Assembly: GCF_014334135.1 (NCBI RefSeq)
Contig: NZ_CP060497.1
Span: forward strand, 3,596,001-3,660,000
Length of the DNA: 64,000 nucleotides
DNA from: Olivibacter sp. SDN3
GTDB lineage: Bacteria; Bacteroidota; Bacteroidia; Sphingobacteriales; Sphingobacteriaceae
Reading direction: 5' to 3'
Shown: one piece after another, positions 37,220 to 45,277 of the stretch
Numbering within the stretch: position 1 is the first letter of the stretch
Layout of the letters: the number at the start of each line of letters is the position of its first letter
Translations under genes and position numbers: made by a program
Notes under the pieces: generated by a model
Told to the model about the DNA's origin: nothing
Databases searched by the model: none
Seen by the model: the letters and a program-made list of their open reading frames with translations, nothing else

Positions 37220-38242
37220 ATGTACAAAAAAATCACTTTTCAGGAAGCTTTAGAAATAAGTTCAGTTTGTAACAAAAGGCACCTTCTTATAGGCAACGGT
37301 TTTAGTATAGCTTGTCGAAAAGACATCTTCCGTTACGATTCATTATATCAACAAGCCGATTTCCAAAAGATAAATCCTGAAATAAAGGAAGTTTTTGACC
37401 ATTTAGGAACAAAGGATTTTGAGCTAGTAATTAAACATTTGAATTATGCAATACATGTTTTAACTATTTATGATCCCAAGAACCTGTATCTTATTACAAG
37501 TTTGAAAAATGATGTGGACGAACTTAAAAGTATTTTGGTTAATACTATAGCTAATAGCCATCCAGAGAACCCTTCTGAAATTTTAGAAGAGGAATATCAG
37601 AATTGTAGAAACTTTTTGTCCAACTTTAACAATTGCTATACCCTTAATTATGATCTTTTATTATACTGGACTTTTATGCATTTCCAAGAAACAAAAGAGC
37701 TCCGTTCCGATGATGGATTTAGGACGCCTGATAATGGACAAGCTAATTTTGTGACTTGGGATATTGAAAAGACGGACGGACAAAATCTATTCTACTTACA
37801 CGGGGCTCTACATTTATTTGATTCTGGTGCAGAACTTCAAAAATATACATGGATAAATACAGGCATACGATTGGTTGAACAAATTCGTAATGCACTGAAT
37901 ACAGATTTATATCCATTATTTGTTTCCGAAGGAACCAGTCGAGAGAAAACAGATAGAATTATGCATAGCAATTACCTGTCTAGAGGTCTAAGGAGCTTTA
38001 GCCATATTGGTGGTTGTCTTTTTATTTATGGACATTCGTTAGCAGACAATGATGATCATATCTTAAAGTTGATACCCAACTGCAGCATCAAATCATTGTT
38101 CATTAGTCTATATGGAGATATTACTTCAGAATCAAATAAAGAGATAATCACAAAAGCTGAGAGACTATTAGCAAAGCGAAAGAAAAAGGGCTATATAGAA
38201 TTGCATTTTTTTGATGCAGAGTCTGCAAGGGTTTGGGGTTGA
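37220..38242 (+). CDS. DUF4917 family protein, SIR2-like layout
   Basis: A 340-residue protein matching the DUF4917 pattern: RHLLIGNGFSIACRKDIF (about residues 20-37), NCYTLNYDLLLYW, YLHGALHLFDSG and CLFIYGHSLADNDDHIL. These four motifs lie in the order of the SIR2-like NAD-binding domains of antiphage proteins (GNG/GxS, TxNYD, LHG with a possible catalytic His, GhSlxDxD). I infer an NAD-related role without proof. It starts 59 nt after the HsdR-N gene. Confidence 0.75.
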   Translation: MYKKITFQEALEISSVCNKRHLLIGNGFSIACRKDIFRYDSLYQQADFQKINPEIKEVFDHLGTKDFELVIKHLNYAIHVLTIYDPKNLYLITSLKNDVDELKSILVNTIANSHPENPSEILEEEYQNCRNFLSNFNNCYTLNYDLLLYWTFMHFQETKELRSDDGFRTPDNGQANFVTWDIEKTDGQNLFYLHGALHLFDSGAELQKYTWINTGIRLVEQIRNALNTDLYPLFVSEGTSREKTDRIMHSNYLSRGLRSFSHIGGCLFIYGHSLADNDDHILKLIPNCSIKSLFISLYGDITSESNKEIITKAERLLAKRKKKGYIELHFFDAESARVWG

Positions 38243-38337
38243 TAAAGCATTACGAATTTAGTATGAATAAATATGATAAATTCTTTATTGGTAAAGAAAA
38301 GTTTTCTGTTAAGAGACCAATTTCATTGTACAAATAA

Positions 38338-38463
38338 GTATTAACTAGGAAGTATGTGCCACAAATGGTCAATGAGTTGGGACGTACGGGAATTAGCGAA
38401 TCTTCTATTTTTCCCGATTTAGAAGGATTATCAAGAGAAATTAAAACAAAATATTTACAGTAA
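38338..38463 (+). pseudogene. C-terminal remnant of an FRG-domain gene
   Basis: In one frame 38263-38337 gives a 24-codon piece ending at TAA. Then 38338-38463 continues in the same frame: YVPQMVNELGRTGISESSIFPDLEGLSREIKTKY, read from about residue 6. The GIxxxxxFPDLxGLxxxL pattern is the end of FRG-domain proteins, frequent in defence islands. There is no start; the gene is mostly deleted. Confidence 0.55.
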
Positions 38464-38473
38464 ATTATTTACT

Positions 38474-39253
38474 ATGGATGACCAATTACTTTTACAGCTT
38501 TTTATTTTAACAGTTATTATTTTCATCGTTCTGATGATAGCATGCCCACCTTTCAGATCATTATTCTATAAAGAACATCCCAATGAACTTAATCCAATAA
38601 GTGCAGAGGAATTTGTTGTAAGATTCGAACAAAAGATGCCTAATGGAGTGTTGGAAAAAGAACTGAGGTGGAAAGAATTACTGGAAAAGGCATGGAAGGT
38701 GCGAGATTTTGAAATAGAGTTATATTGGAAAAGGACCAACTATTTTTGGTTGTTTCAGGTTCCAGCATTTGCAGCGTACTTTCTCGTTTGGAAAAATGAT
38801 GTTAGTAACGATAAACCTGACGAGCTTTTTGTGATCTGTTGTCTCGGTATTGTATTTTCTACTGGTTGGCTTCTCATAAATAAAGGAAGTAAGTCATGGC
38901 AAAGGCATTGGGAATGTTATATTGACTTGTTGGAAGATCGATATTACGGTCCGTTATATAAAACCGTTGGTCTGAAGTCTAGTTATTCAGTATCGAAGAT
39001 CAATGAAATAGTCAGCTGTGCGTTTATTTTCGTTTGGAGCTTATTCGCTGTTAAATTTATGTCGGAAAATAATATAACTATTTGTCTTTGTTCAAATTCT
39101 GAAAAATTTAAGCCATTTATAGCATTTACCTTGTTTTTTACAAGTATTACGTTGCTAAGTATGTTCAAAGGATATGGTAGAGGGTATTTTAAAGGTAGAA
39201 ATATTACTTTTTATAAAAGAAAGGTTACATATAAAAAAGGTGATTCAGAATAA
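38474..39253 (+). CDS. RipA-like multi-pass membrane protein
   Basis: A 259-residue membrane protein. Segments lie near residues 4-24, 82-100, 112-130, 175-195 and 208-226. The pattern KRTNYFWLFQVPAFAAYFLVW, then GSKSWQRHWECYIDLLEDRYYGPLYK and YSVSKINEIVSCAFIFVW resembles RipA family octameric membrane proteins. These are small membrane proteins often next to accessory or defence genes. The function in this locus is unknown. It lies between the FRG remnant and the QatB-like gene in the same orientation. Confidence 0.55.
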   Translation: MDDQLLLQLFILTVIIFIVLMIACPPFRSLFYKEHPNELNPISAEEFVVRFEQKMPNGVLEKELRWKELLEKAWKVRDFEIELYWKRTNYFWLFQVPAFAAYFLVWKNDVSNDKPDELFVICCLGIVFSTGWLLINKGSKSWQRHWECYIDLLEDRYYGPLYKTVGLKSSYSVSKINEIVSCAFIFVWSLFAVKFMSENNITICLCSNSEKFKPFIAFTLFFTSITLLSMFKGYGRGYFKGRNITFYKRKVTYKKGDSE

Positions 39254-39331: not shown

Positions 39332-40120
39332 ATGGGTCACGAACGTATTGGAACTTTACCTAAAAGTGAGCGGTGGCGAAATATTGTGAGAAGTGTTGGT
39401 AATTATACTGATAGTGAGGATAATATTGCAGAAATAGCTTCTCAAGCTACAAGAAATGTCAGGAGTAGATTCCAAGACATAACTTCTGATTCTAGTGTTT
39501 TTGCTGCTTTCAAATTCATATTAACACTTGCGCATTTAGCAAAGTCAGACGACGCACTTGAGAAGTTACAGGGACAAGGGATAGTCCTTCCGAAAAACTT
39601 CAACCTCTATGACTTGGCATTTTGCATACAAAATTACGTTTTAGAAGATATTGACTCTCAGGAATACTCATCTTTTGCAGTTCAGTCGATTATCGAAACG
39701 ATTAGTGAATGGGCTAGAGTCAACGAGACCGGGCAGCAAAATCTTTTTGAGTCTAATGATGGGAGCCTTGAATTGTGGAGGAAAGCTTCAAATGGAGCTG
39801 GGTTTTGTGAATTGTCTAGATTGTTTTTTTCGAAATTTACAGAACGATATTTAAAATATTTTTTAGAGAGGGAGGCAGCAGCGGAGATTAACAACCTTTA
39901 TGATAGAACACAGTTTAATAAAAATTTAGAAACTCATATTGATAGGATTGCAAAACATGCATTTGAGACTTCAAAAATAACGCAGTCATTCGCAGCGGCA
40001 TGGTTTAATAAATATGCAAGAGAAAAATTACCAACTGATAAGAGGATAAGAGGTTTCCTTTCATTTGCTTTTCAGAAAATAAACAGCGAGCTAGTAAGGG
40101 AGGAAATAGCTAATGATTAA
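39332..40120 (+). CDS. QatB-like partner protein
   Basis: A 262-residue, mainly helical, soluble protein. It begins MGHERIGTLPKSERWRNIVR, so removal of Met would expose an N-terminal glycine. FSKFTERYLKYFLEREAA (about residues 168-185) resembles the segment seen in QatB proteins of Qat antiphage systems. The last 8 nt overlap the start of the QueC-like gene, which shows translational coupling. In Qat loci QatB sits directly before QatC, as here. The QatB call rests on length, N-terminus, this segment and context; sequence similarity may be weak. Confidence 0.6.
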   Translation: MGHERIGTLPKSERWRNIVRSVGNYTDSEDNIAEIASQATRNVRSRFQDITSDSSVFAAFKFILTLAHLAKSDDALEKLQGQGIVLPKNFNLYDLAFCIQNYVLEDIDSQEYSSFAVQSIIETISEWARVNETGQQNLFESNDGSLELWRKASNGAGFCELSRLFFSKFTERYLKYFLEREAAAEINNLYDRTQFNKNLETHIDRIAKHAFETSKITQSFAAAWFNKYAREKLPTDKRIRGFLSFAFQKINSELVREEIAND

Positions 40121-42002
40121 ATCTAACCACCATATCGTGTTGTGTGGTGGAGCTCGTACTTCCCCTCGAAAATTGAAACAATATGTTCCAAGCCATATTC
40201 ATGAGTTGTGTATCGATACCTCTACTAAAGGGCAGAATATAAATCTTGATTTGCCACACTTCATTAAATCTGTTAACTGCCATTTTCCCGATCGTATTAA
40301 AGATTTGTTAGAAATAGCAGGGTACGTGTATGCGGCTGACAGAATGATCGGCCGTGGCGCTAATGATAGCCTCGAATATCACAGCTGGTCTCGACAATTG
40401 GATTTTTTTATCAAAGTAAGAGACGTTTCGTTTTGGTCTCGTCCTGAAGTCTCGAAGTCATTATCTGAAGCCTTGGTTTTCGTTTCTGGTGATTTAGAAT
40501 ATACTTTTAAATTTCAAGAAGGAGGGACGGACTTTGGCCAAGTAAGTCTTTATGACAATGAAGCGATTCAGTTGGAAAAAAAAGAAAATTCCATTATCTG
40601 TCTTTTTTCTGGCGGTCTAGACTCGCTAGCTGGCGCTCTTGAAATTCTTACGAAAACGGATAAAAATTTAATTTTAGTAAGCCACAGGTCTAATACAACT
40701 GGAGTTTCAAAAATTCAGAAAGGCATATATGGTCTGCTTCAGAACGATTTTCCTAATAGAATTCAGTATTTTCCTTTCTATTGTAATCTTCATCTTCATG
40801 GTGAACGAGCAGTTGAGGAAACCCAGCGAACACGAATATTTTTATATACGACAATTGCTTATGCGCTGTCTACGCTTGCTTCAGAAAAGGATATTTACGT
40901 ATTTGAAAATGGCATAACGTCTTTAAACTTTTCAAAGCGGGCTGATTTGATAAATGCTCGAGCTAGTAGAACGACACATCCTAAAACTTTGCAGTTGTTT
41001 GAAAATTTCTATTCTGTTGTTGGAGGAGAGCACCGCCCCATTATTCACCCTTTTCTGTATAATACTAAAACCGATATTTTTAAGAAAATCGAGTCGGCGG
41101 GCAAGATCAATTATATCAATTCCACAATCTCATGTACAAAAACGTTTCTTAGGTTTGAAAATAATTCTCAAGCAACTCATTGCGGGGGATGTTCCCAATG
41201 CGTTGATAGGAGATTGGCAGCGTTTGCTTCGGGTCTCGAGGACTTCGACGCAATTTATGATGTTGATATCGCGAGAGATCCTGTTGTTAGTTTAGAATCA
41301 CGAACACATTTAAATGACTATATCAGAGCAATTGTAAAATACAACGGTTTTACAGAACTGAACTTCCAATATGAAATGTTAGCGCCATTAACTGATATAT
41401 TACCTTATTTAAAAGGACAGCTACCGTCAGAAAAGGCATTGAGAATTTATGATCTGCTAAAAGTGCATACTACGCAGGTATTAAGTGCTCTCCAGAGGAT
41501 AAGGCTTCTTCAAGATCCACTTAAGCCTAAAGTTGCAAATACTCTATGTGCTTATATTGATGACAGAGTATATCTAAAGCCTCCGGTAGAGTGTTTAATT
41601 GATGTGATTAAAGCGAAGCTCATTGTAGCAATACCTCAAGCATTTGAACATGAAAAACCCAAGCATGAAAATGCATTAAATGACCTTATACATGCTCTTA
41701 TTCAAAGCGAAAGCGCTGATTATGGGAGGGAATATCCGACAATAAAATTTTCAGTTGCTCGTGTTATACCAGATCATTCTTTTTTAGATGCTTACAATTT
41801 ATTAATAGAGGCGAAATATTTGCGTGGGAGAACTTCTAAAGCAGCGATTACGGATCAAATTGGAGCTGACATTACAAAATATCCAAAAGAAAAGCACAAA
41901 TTGTTTATTGTTTACGATCCTGAAAGAAAAATCGCGAATGACAGTGATTTTTCGAAAGATATTGAAATTCAGCCAAATTGCTCAGTGTTTATTGTTCGTT
42001 AA
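40113..42002 (+). CDS. QueC-like PP-loop protein (QatC-like) with C-terminal PD-(D/E)XK-like domain
   Basis: A 629-residue protein. Residues about 1-155 are an N-terminal domain of unknown fold. Residues about 160-395 are QueC-like: the PP-loop SGGLDS (166-171), EETQRTRIFLYTTIAYAL, and zinc cysteines Cys341, Cys357, Cys360 and Cys363 in HCGGCSQCVDRR. Residues about 400-530 are helical. The end (535-629) has SFLDAYNLLIEAKYLRG, with Asp559, Glu566 and Lys568, and TDQIGADITKYP, the layout of a PD-(D/E)XK nuclease. QueC converts carboxy-deazaguanine to preQ0; QatC and type IV CBASS relatives serve defence. Confidence 0.75.
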   Translation: MIKSNHHIVLCGGARTSPRKLKQYVPSHIHELCIDTSTKGQNINLDLPHFIKSVNCHFPDRIKDLLEIAGYVYAADRMIGRGANDSLEYHSWSRQLDFFIKVRDVSFWSRPEVSKSLSEALVFVSGDLEYTFKFQEGGTDFGQVSLYDNEAIQLEKKENSIICLFSGGLDSLAGALEILTKTDKNLILVSHRSNTTGVSKIQKGIYGLLQNDFPNRIQYFPFYCNLHLHGERAVEETQRTRIFLYTTIAYALSTLASEKDIYVFENGITSLNFSKRADLINARASRTTHPKTLQLFENFYSVVGGEHRPIIHPFLYNTKTDIFKKIESAGKINYINSTISCTKTFLRFENNSQATHCGGCSQCVDRRLAAFASGLEDFDAIYDVDIARDPVVSLESRTHLNDYIRAIVKYNGFTELNFQYEMLAPLTDILPYLKGQLPSEKALRIYDLLKVHTTQVLSALQRIRLLQDPLKPKVANTLCAYIDDRVYLKPPVECLIDVIKAKLIVAIPQAFEHEKPKHENALNDLIHALIQSESADYGREYPTIKFSVARVIPDHSFLDAYNLLIEAKYLRGRTSKAAITDQIGADITKYPKEKHKLFIVYDPERKIANDSDFSKDIEIQPNCSVFIVR

Positions 42003-42027: not shown

Positions 42028-43626
42028 TTATTTCTTATTCACCAAATGCTTATTAATAGCCTGACCAATAATCTGTCTACGTTTTCGTAGTTGTCGTGAA
42101 AAAGAATTTGATTCAAATTCTTTTTTACACCTCCTGATATAAGACATGTAGTTCGATTGATTCTTACTCTCCAAGTCAAAATGCTTGAAGACAAAATCAC
42201 CACGTTCGTTCACTATTAATGAGTATCTTCTTCTAAATACTTGTTTAGCTTCGGTTTTGTTAGCGTGTTTCAACGGGGTATTATATAGCTTCTTAATTTG
42301 ATTAATGTATACGGCTCTTGGAACTGTTGGGTTATGCTGCGACAATTTTATCGCTCTTCTTGATCGCCTCTTTATTATTTCGATAATTCGCCTGTAGTAT
42401 TTTGCGATATTGGTGGATTTTATCAAAGTGTTGTAACCTCGAAATTCAAAGCCCAAATAAGTTAATGGAGAATCTATAATAGAAACCGACTGGGTTACCC
42501 TAATCGAGGTGATTCTTTTATCTTTATTTTTGTTGTAAACTAATCTTCTGAAAAGAAATCGCTCTGTTTTTTCTTGACTGATTTCGACTTCATACTTCAC
42601 GATTAACTCGTTAACATATTTATCAATCGTATCAACCTGTTCTGGGGAACACAGAATCAATATATCATCCGAATACCTTCTATAAAATACCCCTAGCTTT
42701 TTAGTTAGTTCGTTGATAATTGTAGTGTCAAACTCAAGCAGATATAGATTTGCTAATACTGCGCTTATAGGAAGCCCCTGTGGAATTCCGATCTTCTCTT
42801 TCTTTCCTTCTGGGGTTATTCTTCTGAAAGGATTTTTGTAGATACTTAATCTTCCTTCTCTTATCTCTTTTCGGAACTCTTCGTTCGATTGGAAAAAGCA
42901 TTTAAAGCCCTTACTTTTTCTTATTTTAGAGAGACGTGATTCATCGAAACCGGTTTTATTCTTTTTTAAATCATTATAAAGAACATAACTGAAGTTAGTA
43001 CAGGCCTTAAAGACATTATAGTGATCAGCCGGTAGAGCTTCCTCTTCTAATAAATTAGACCAAATCTTATATAGATGTTTATGTGATATAGAGGAAAAGA
43101 AACTTTTTAGATCAATTGCAAGAGCGGAGATTTTACCATACTTTTCAACACAACTTTTAATCTCATCAAGCACTTCACGAGCAAAGTGAATATTACTTTT
43201 TCCTTTTTCGGTGGTTTCATTTACGGGGATTGTCCTGTAGGCGAGTACAGCTTTATTCAATTCTGGGTCTTCTTTCAATTTTTTTTCGTAGAGTTTCCCT
43301 AATTCATGAGCGTAGTAGGAATAAATCAGTGAATCGAAATGGCTGGCATAATGCAATGGTCTCTTTTTTACACTTCGCTCCACGGTGTTCTTGCCGATTA
43401 TCTTGTGACTATGTGCTCTTTTGTTTCCTATATGCTTTTTTTGATTTGGTTTTTTATACTTACGATCTGAGAGTATCCGATGTATTAGGGGGTAAAATGC
43501 ATATTTAGCAATATAACTTGGAGATTTTATTTTATGCATATAAATTTTCCAATTACTCTCAACATTTAGAGAAGGAGTAATGTGCATATATCCTTTGCTT
43601 TGAAGCCAGTCAGGTTTAGGGATCAT
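42028..43626 (-). CDS. Stand-alone reverse transcriptase, probable defence type
   Basis: A 532-residue reverse transcriptase. Motifs in order are IPKPDWLQSKGYMHITPSL at the N-terminus, SALAIDLKSFFSSISHKHLY (motif 3), GIPQGLPISAVLANLYL (motif 4), FYRRYSDDILILC (catalytic YSDD) and PLTYLGFEFRG (motif 7). There is no maturase or HNH domain and no retron VTG region, so it is neither a group II intron nor an obvious retron. It best fits the unknown-group/DRT or Abi-type enzymes. I chose ATG 43626; an in-frame TTG lies at 43650. It converges on the QueC-like gene with a 25-nt gap. Confidence 0.85.
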   Translation of the reverse strand: MIPKPDWLQSKGYMHITPSLNVESNWKIYMHKIKSPSYIAKYAFYPLIHRILSDRKYKKPNQKKHIGNKRAHSHKIIGKNTVERSVKKRPLHYASHFDSLIYSYYAHELGKLYEKKLKEDPELNKAVLAYRTIPVNETTEKGKSNIHFAREVLDEIKSCVEKYGKISALAIDLKSFFSSISHKHLYKIWSNLLEEEALPADHYNVFKACTNFSYVLYNDLKKNKTGFDESRLSKIRKSKGFKCFFQSNEEFRKEIREGRLSIYKNPFRRITPEGKKEKIGIPQGLPISAVLANLYLLEFDTTIINELTKKLGVFYRRYSDDILILCSPEQVDTIDKYVNELIVKYEVEISQEKTERFLFRRLVYNKNKDKRITSIRVTQSVSIIDSPLTYLGFEFRGYNTLIKSTNIAKYYRRIIEIIKRRSRRAIKLSQHNPTVPRAVYINQIKKLYNTPLKHANKTEAKQVFRRRYSLIVNERGDFVFKHFDLESKNQSNYMSYIRRCKKEFESNSFSRQLRKRRQIIGQAINKHLVNKK

Positions 43627-43758
43627 AGGTATAAAGTAAAGCTCATGCAAGGGCTATCAATAATGCATTATTGTTTACATAACCATTTTTACATGCGGAC
43701 CAGGACCCAATTACTGAGTCATTGTAATTTCGATAAACATAATAAAGTAATCTACTAC
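43627..43758. promoter_or_regulatory. Upstream segment of the reverse transcriptase with palindromes
   Basis: Between the RT start and a small plus-strand gene are CAATAATGCATTATTG (perfect 16-bp palindrome, 43658-43673) and the 6-bp stem AATTAC / GTAATT (43709-43714 with 43724-43729). These could be an operator or part of a non-coding RNA, since several defence RTs copy an adjacent RNA. No conserved RNA family is recognised. Confidence 0.4.
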
Positions 43759-43920
43759 ATGAACAAACTATTTAGAATAATTGCTATATTAGTAGCTATA
43801 ACTGTCTTGGTACATTTAGATACCTTGTCAGCATTTAACTTCATCATTGAAGTATTTATAACCAAAGTGCTAGAAGCATTCAAGCCTTGGTTCAATAAAC
43901 ACCTAACCTATTATTTCTAA
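43759..43920 (+). CDS. Small single-span membrane peptide
   Basis: Fifty-three codons begin MNKLFRIIAILVAITVLVHL, a short basic start and one hydrophobic helix, then a moderately charged tail (FITKVLEAFKPWFNKHLTYYF). It is divergent from the reverse transcriptase. It could be a toxic or accessory membrane peptide of the RT locus; it could also be chance. Confidence 0.35.
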   Translation: MNKLFRIIAILVAITVLVHLDTLSAFNFIIEVFITKVLEAFKPWFNKHLTYYF

Positions 43921-44029
43921 TAGTAAAGCCATAAAAGCTCTTTGATCCTACCTAATTGTAAACTGCTATTTATCCCATTGCATAAGCTTCCCAAATTTAT
44001 TAAATTGCAAGCATAAATAATAACCTAAA

Positions 44030-45277
44030 ATGGAAAAATCTGAACCTACAAATCCGTACATCGATACGCAAGATTATAAAGAAAAAGATGAGAAAATTCC
44101 GATCGGATCCATAGTGTCCAATTTAGCTCATCCTTATACTCAAGACAACAGAAATGTGTTGATAACAACCTATGCGCATTTCACACCGCCATTAATGATT
44201 GTTGTTGAAAAAAACTACGGGGCAAAATATAATGCAGTTAGTGGTGTGTATGAAGATAATGATTCTTACAAATGCTTATACTATTCGACGATTAACGGTT
44301 CTTTTGAGTATAATTGGTTTAAGAGAAGAGAAATTCGATTTATTAAAGAAGGCGATAATAAGCTTTTGATAGAGTATAAGGACAAGGGTGCCGAGGAAGT
44401 GAAAAAGAACTTATTAGGTAAGATGGCTATTTTAACTAACGTTGATTTAGAACTCGAAAAGAAAAAACTATGGTCGGATTCTGACGGGAAACTAAAGAAG
44501 CCGAAGATAAATAATTTACTAGATTTTTTGCCGCCCCTTGGTACGATAATAGATATTAAAAACAATGAAGATTATCAGAAGTATAATGAAAAAAGTGGCA
44601 AAATAAGTTATAGGAAGTCCAAATTGTCTGTAAAGTTAAGATGGTTTAACAATGCAACATCTAAATACAGTGAGGAGTACATACCGATGATAGCAATTAA
44701 AACTCTATCAACGGAACTTAAGAGCTATAGCCCTACTTTACATTATTTGTATAATTCGCCCAGCCAATTGGAAGAAAATGCGTCCAAGAAAGTTAAAGCT
44801 ACACCATTCAAAATAGAGGATATTATTTGGCAACATTACTACTACGTTTACCGATTTAAAAATTTGTTCACAAACCAGTTAGTCACCCTAAAAACAGAAG
44901 AGCAGTTAGCAAAAATATCGGATTTCAATACACTCAGCGCAGATGATATAGAAACATTGTTACATAATAGCAAATTCGAATTCAAAAAAATCACTGATTT
45001 TTTTAATGTAGATAATAAAGAAAATCTCGAAAATAAATGGTTTGAGATTCAATATTCTGACAGAAACGAAAGGTATACAAGAAGGATTATTTATGTTAAT
45101 GAGTTGATTGAAGAAGAACCCGAAACCGCCAATAGCAAAACCAGATTAATTTTAAAAGCTAATTGCTTATTGAGAGAAGGTAAAACTCGCCATTTTAACG
45201 TGAGTAGAATAAAAGGTTATAGATTGATGCCAGAGACTTTTGCTAGTAATTTTGTTGAAACGAAGTTAGTAAAATAA
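44030..45277 (+). CDS. Uncharacterised protein with WYL-like C-terminal domain
   Basis: A 415-residue soluble protein rich in Lys, Glu and Asn. I recognise no domain in residues 1-320. The end, WFEIQYSDRNERYTRRIIYVNEL, then LILKANCLLREGKTRHFNVSRIKGY, has the spacing of a WYL domain (I-x-Y, LxAxCxLR, R-x-F, RI). WYL domains sense ligands, including nucleotides, in regulators of defence systems. It may regulate or act with the reverse transcriptase locus. A strong terminator follows. Confidence 0.45.
   Translation: MEKSEPTNPYIDTQDYKEKDEKIPIGSIVSNLAHPYTQDNRNVLITTYAHFTPPLMIVVEKNYGAKYNAVSGVYEDNDSYKCLYYSTINGSFEYNWFKRREIRFIKEGDNKLLIEYKDKGAEEVKKNLLGKMAILTNVDLELEKKKLWSDSDGKLKKPKINNLLDFLPPLGTIIDIKNNEDYQKYNEKSGKISYRKSKLSVKLRWFNNATSKYSEEYIPMIAIKTLSTELKSYSPTLHYLYNSPSQLEENASKKVKATPFKIEDIIWQHYYYVYRFKNLFTNQLVTLKTEEQLAKISDFNTLSADDIETLLHNSKFEFKKITDFFNVDNKENLENKWFEIQYSDRNERYTRRIIYVNELIEEEPETANSKTRLILKANCLLREGKTRHFNVSRIKGYRLMPETFASNFVETKLVK

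Follow-up and report, generated by a model that had tools for sequence, protein, structure and literature searches.

Among described anti-phage systems, the closest relatives of the locus reported here are those that pair a QueC-like enzyme with a partner protein. In the qatABCD system (Gao et al. 2020; PMC13279940), QatB and QatC alone protect against lambda and the N-terminal glycine motif of QatB is required for this protection (PMC13279940). A QatB-QatC complex has been shown for the P. aeruginosa QatBC (PMC13279940). For QatBC, modification of the N-terminal glycine was proposed and the glycine motif was found to be essential (PMC13279940). The residues that bind deazaguanine in Cap9 and QueC are replaced in QatC, whose reaction was not identified by the published authors. 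The QueC-like Cap9 of type IV CBASS links a deazaguanine to glycine 2 of its partner (PMC11996544); Cap9 lacks the extensions of QatC and, unlike QatC, keeps the canonical substrate residues of QueC (PMC13279940, PMC13329287). Here, we describe a two-gene locus of Olivibacter sp. SDN3 that is probably a compact QatBC-like anti-phage module, in which glycine 2 of the partner would be modified by a QueC-like enzyme and this modification would gate a nuclease built into the same enzyme and directed against DNA. Searches for fusions of QatC with a nuclease, and of QueC with DpnII or with a winged helix, retrieved nothing relevant in the literature searched.

The window, that is the whole stretch of 64 kb that was analysed, spans bases 3596001-3660000 of the genome (G000), which is a single contig of 6.12 Mb. 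It contains, as the sequence-only reading had claimed, two overlapping open reading frames on the forward strand, both starting with ATG and sharing 8 nt: positions 39332-40120 (+) encode a partner of 262 aa and positions 40113-42002 (+) a QatC-like protein of 629 aa with a C-terminal nuclease domain, referred to below as the ligase. The same pair was found in five genomes with ligases 56-79% identical to that of the window, the 8-nt overlap being repeated in four of the five and the partner measuring 261-262 aa in all of them. Values of dN for the pair were 0.12-0.46, dS having reached or passed saturation, and for the larger protein against its relatives 0.15-0.34 over the whole gene and 0.12-0.27 over the nuclease domain, with dS again saturated or beyond. 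Since the pair is kept in five genomes and is under strong purifying selection, it does not represent a chance arrangement of reading frames.

The larger protein has the N-terminally extended QatC-like architecture, the PP-loop and the zinc site of the enzyme of qatABCD. Its residues 51-407 match the NCBIfam QatC model NF041925 with 190.5 bits (E 4e-56), below the equivalog cut-off of 280 bits, and other members of its clade score 177-213 bits. Matches to the PADLOC QatC model (E 1.9e-46) and to the PDB QatC chain 9zee_B (E 4e-28), together with an alignment of the clade profile to the canonical QatC profile over residues 4-464 (HHalign 100%, E 8e-53), bear out the QatC-like core that had been read from the letters. 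The N-terminal QatC-type extension, residues 1-160 (40113-40592, +), was delimited by alignment to canonical QatC and carries the invariant columns D76-x4-R81 and W92-x-R94, judged against the QatC motif list of PMC13329287. The QueC-type PP-loop ATPase core, residues 161-386 (40593-41270, +), was placed by profile matches and alignments. Both the PP-loop (SGGLDS, residues 166-171) and the zinc cysteines (C341, C357, C360 and C363) that had been predicted are present, and none of these residues varies in an alignment of ten rows with relatives that share 33-64% identity with the window protein. In the adenosine-contact region R239, R241 and F243 are retained with respect to the published QatC residue list (PMC13279940). 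SGGxDS, the zinc cysteines and the RxRxxxF/Y, HP and TK motifs accompany the extension and the QueC core as broad QatC-like features. The invariant T278 of canonical QatC corresponds to S285 and its T280 to T287; the resulting S285-R-T287-T-H-P is invariant in the clade. The exchange of T278 for Ser is conservative and affects a position that has been described as unvarying in QatC. Residues 387-517 (41271-41663, +) form the C-terminal QatC extension, aligned with QatC up to residue 464, and a linker; in QatC this extension contributes to QatB binding (PMC13279940).

Related pairs were collected from genome contigs (five close ones), from searches of genomes and plasmids (five pairs at greater distance, plus one on a plasmid) and from scans of viral contigs (about 30). 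In a tree of the core (339 columns, 61 rows), the 35 ligases of such pairs were split from 26 canonical QatC by a branch of 0.94 with SH-aLRT 99, and the window pair thus apparently belongs to a wider, previously undescribed clade separate from canonical QatC. The locus had been read as a minimal Qat-derived system; the separate clade stands, while the tree, lacking a fixed root, does not establish derivation from Qat, and the pair may represent a sister lineage instead of a shortened qatABCD. The other two Qat components are indeed missing, as had been noted for the surroundings of the pair: a query that detected QatA, the KAP-type ATPase, in 15 of 20 canonical loci matched nothing in the window or in any of 44 clade loci, and an HMM built from 20 canonical QatD, the TatD-type nuclease, likewise gave no match in the window or the clade loci.

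The proposed fusion of a nuclease domain to the QatC-like protein was confirmed at the sequence level. Residues 518-629 (41664-41999, +) are assigned to a DpnII/MboI-type PD-(D/E)XK domain, matching Pfam PF18742 (DpnII-MboI) with 45.1 bits against a gathering score of 27 (E 1e-11); the same family was detected in two relatives, L006 (2e-9) and L023 (1e-9), the latter a plasmid protein of Leptospira noguchii that scores above the family cut-off although it is only about 40% identical overall to the window protein. Alignment with a full-length PF18742 protein (L021) identified D554, E566 and K568 as the catalytic set, along with D586-x3-Y590 and YDPE at 601-604. D554, within I-P-D-H, E566, K568 and YDPE are invariant among nuclease-bearing relatives. 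From the D-(x)6-ExK layout that had been suggested, E566-x-K568 is therefore retained; D559, which is absent in L005 and L023, was rejected as the catalytic aspartate in favour of D554, which is invariant and aligned with PF18742. The domain is as conserved as the core (dN 0.122 versus 0.143 between the window and L004). It shares with the DpnII/MboI restriction endonucleases the PD-(D/E)XK core with D554, E566 and K568, the DxxxY motif and YDPE, and differs from them in that no adjoining cognate methyltransferase was seen in the window. It is also of the same class as the argonaute-associated Helical-REase (PADLOC Aga_Helical-REase, 1.9e-4), and is distinguished from both by its fusion to a QatC-like protein rather than to helical or argonaute-associated proteins. 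An AlphaFold2 model of residues 440-629 from six sequences was poor (pLDDT 67, below 50 in the catalytic stretch), and the Foldseek matches obtained with it were discarded as meaningless. Nothing significant was returned when the nuclease alignment was searched against PDB sequences.

The C-terminal domain is swappable within the clade. When the tails of the clade ligases were grouped by BLAST clusters, the nuclease was found in the window protein, L002-L006 and L023, while a second group carried an OmpR-type winged helix (PF00486 in L048, L058 and L060). Winged-helix-like tails were also seen in L071, L075 and L079, where PF00486 was reached only in L071 and only with E 0.06, and a group of ten members reads as winged-helix-like with no Pfam match. 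By eye, L025-L028 end in short HTH-like tails and the ligase at L029:1408-3375 (G513) in a different tail with a PD-(D/E)XK-like VELKNK motif and no Pfam match. The usual tail thus looks DNA-binding, with a nuclease in its place in the window group, and the nuclease is not essential to the core mechanism, since no nuclease is recognised in the larger part of the wider clade. These observations introduce the main rival to our reading, namely that the pair acts in the manner of QatBC with the nuclease domain serving as a module for DNA binding or sensing that perhaps has weak catalytic activity or none, and with the modified partner itself responsible for killing or blocking. In its favour, canonical QatB and QatC are enough against some phages even when the QatD nuclease is missing (PMC13279940), and in most relatives the position of the nuclease is taken by wHTH or HTH-like domains; the invariance of D554, E566, K568 and YDPE under strong purifying selection is, however, what is expected of an active nuclease, and we regard a non-effector domain as rather unlikely.

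The partner had been described as QatB-like, which holds for its fold and not for its sequence. No significant match was found in the Pfam, PADLOC or NCBIfam profiles, and hmmsearch with a QatB profile was negative. An AlphaFold2 model built with twelve relatives is all-helical with a disordered start (pLDDT 84.9, pTM 0.85), and in a Foldseek search of 350,542 PDB chains the QatB structures 9y02_A and 9y01_A ranked first and second with probability 0.99, followed by a third-ranked match at 0.18; nothing above 0.2 was found in a viral library. The TM-scores were 0.45-0.53 (0.53 by target length), and since the accompanying E-value of 0.1 is weak, the QatB fold is considered likely rather than proven. 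HHalign placed the partner family colinear with QatB over residues 11-257, weakly, at a probability of 12%, and the gene order and Met-Gly start agree with a QatB identity. The pair therefore resembles QatB-QatC in comprising adjacent genes, the upstream one encoding an all-helical partner, conserved in all related pairs, of probable QatB fold with a disordered Met-Gly start, and differs in the absence of QatA and QatD and in a partner unrecognisable by sequence.

The start of the partner, residues 1-15 (39332-39376, +), reads M-G-H-E-R-I-G-T-L-P-K-S-E-R-W and follows the clade consensus M-G-H-x-R-x-G-x-L-P; glycine 2 is the proposed modification site. Residues 1-14 have no secondary structure in the model and residues 1-8 have pLDDT below 50. 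Among 42 readable partners, glycine 2 was present in 40, H3 in 41, R5 in 38, G7 in 37, P10 in 38 and W15 in 40. This count omits L087, whose partner has an in-frame stop at W15, and includes only once G019, apparently the genome of L004 (identical partner); the ligase of L081 appears missing because the contig stops inside the gene. Canonical QatB from Qat loci start with MGT[ST] in 24 of 24 cases, and the window partner, lacking the MGTS motif, has MGH instead and retains glycine 2; its tail of about 14 aa (MGHxRxGxLP) compares with MGTS plus 30-90 aa in canonical QatB. At L037:542-3057 (G525) lies a further Qat variant, in which a 188-aa partner starting MGTSVSQRSP and a QatC-like protein of 452 aa are followed by an unknown gene of 211 aa.

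All 40 partners with glycine 2 are accompanied by a ligase, and both partners without it lack an intact one (Fisher p 0.0012, uncorrected for relatedness, in a set of related sequences with two exceptions only). The first exception, L045, starts with MRH, and its ligase is a remnant of 110 aa that has lost the catalytic core; the second, L085, starts with MDH, and no ligase was found downstream of it. The former, at L045:6001-7106 (IMGVR_UViG_3300028883_000054), lies in a phage-like replication region between a DnaQ-type exonuclease upstream and a DnaC-like loader downstream. Its partner homologue, with glycine 2 replaced by arginine, precedes a QatC remnant that has kept the C-terminal extension; partner and remnant are possibly a phage decoy or inhibitor. 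The latter, at L085:5001-5765, is an orphan partner gene with no QatC-like gene following it.

QueC makes preQ0, and some systems put preQ0 into DNA. The fusion of a restriction endonuclease to a QueC-like protein could accordingly be read as restriction-modification, the enzyme producing a deazaguanine base for DNA and the nuclease cutting DNA devoid of it. Such a reading gives no part to the strictly kept glycine 2 of the partner, the genes examined beside the pair include no transglycosylase (DpdA/TGT-like), a restriction endonuclease is recognised in only a minority of relatives, and QatC failed to substitute for QueC in E. coli (PMC13329287), all of which make base modification very improbable. 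From the deazaguanine-type chemistry earlier assigned to the locus we keep the QueC-like enzyme and give up modification of a base or of DNA, N-terminal modification of the partner being the most likely outcome. The window genome holds a QueE homologue (below NCBIfam cut-offs) and a FolE-like/PTPS gene pair, from which 7-carboxy-7-deazaguanine may be available, and no canonical QueC above cut-off. A QueE homologue without canonical QueC above cut-off was seen in this genome (entries G000:C1:4153902 and G000:C1:1504900) and in 18 others of the set, including those of L002-L006. QatC-type active sites may also use something other than 7-carboxy-7-deazaguanine.

The position of the pair among defence-type genes, inferred earlier from context, is evident in the window and in its relatives. 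The neighbours are an HSDR_N protein, PDC-S21, an 8xMP membrane protein, a Drt2-like reverse transcriptase, an RT-associated WYL/YodC and an ISL3 transposase. PDC-S21 (DUF4917, 2e-125), a candidate defence gene, and then the 8xMP-type protein occupy 37220-39253. At 42028-45277 the reverse transcriptase, matched by PADLOC at 5e-124 yet below the NCBIfam Drt2 cut-off, is convergent with the pair, with the RT-associated WYL/YodC on the opposite strand. Type I or III restriction-modification genes adjoin the pair in L003, L006, L052 and L053. In L048, L049 and L050 the pair lies shortly downstream of a large serine recombinase, which suggests carriage on an integrating element. A protein-modifying system with some other cellular role might have come to sit in variable islands by chance, and by eye no defence gene was recognised near L029. 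This explanation is improbable given that the window and at least four relatives adjoin known defence genes, that several relatives reside on integrase- or recombinase-bearing elements, and that the distribution is patchy, clade members having been found in 6 of the 395 genomes of the phylum that were sampled, among which the window genome alone carries the nuclease form.

The favoured reading, modification of glycine 2 gating the fused nuclease, can be laid out as a series of putative steps. By homology, the partner and the QueC-like protein would form a complex. Removal of Met1 would bare glycine 2 on a flexible tail, which would enter the QueC-like active site, where the enzyme would spend ATP on activating a carboxylate, that of 7-carboxy-7-deazaguanine or a related small molecule, and join it to the glycine. 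We infer the joining step because it has been shown for Cap9 and because of the glycine 2 pattern in the clade. The modification would then gate the complex, and upon infection the DpnII/MboI-type nuclease would cut phage DNA or all DNA of the cell, thereby presumably conferring protection. The nuclease would represent an in-cis DNA-acting part, replaced elsewhere in the clade by a winged-helix or HTH DNA-binding domain. With type IV CBASS the pair would share a QueC-family enzyme and a partner exposing an N-terminal glycine, in the absence of a CD-NTase and of Cap10.

A more far-reaching interpretation, which we hold only tentatively, is that these pairs make up a separate two-gene immune class in which a QueC-like ligase modifies glycine 2 of its partner and thereby gates its own swappable DNA-acting C-terminus, and to which phages may oppose ligase-less, glycine-less decoys such as L045. 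The clade bears on questions raised by the literature of 2026, namely the way in which QatBC halts phages, the contribution of QatA and QatD, and whether QatC modifies QatB. In this clade a two-gene QatBC occurs naturally with its DNA-acting part inside the ligase, so that the effector would be directly mutable, and the clade offers compact proteins for biochemical and structural work. The retention of glycine 2 wherever the ligase is kept provides a genetic argument for N-terminal modification that is independent of the published mutants.
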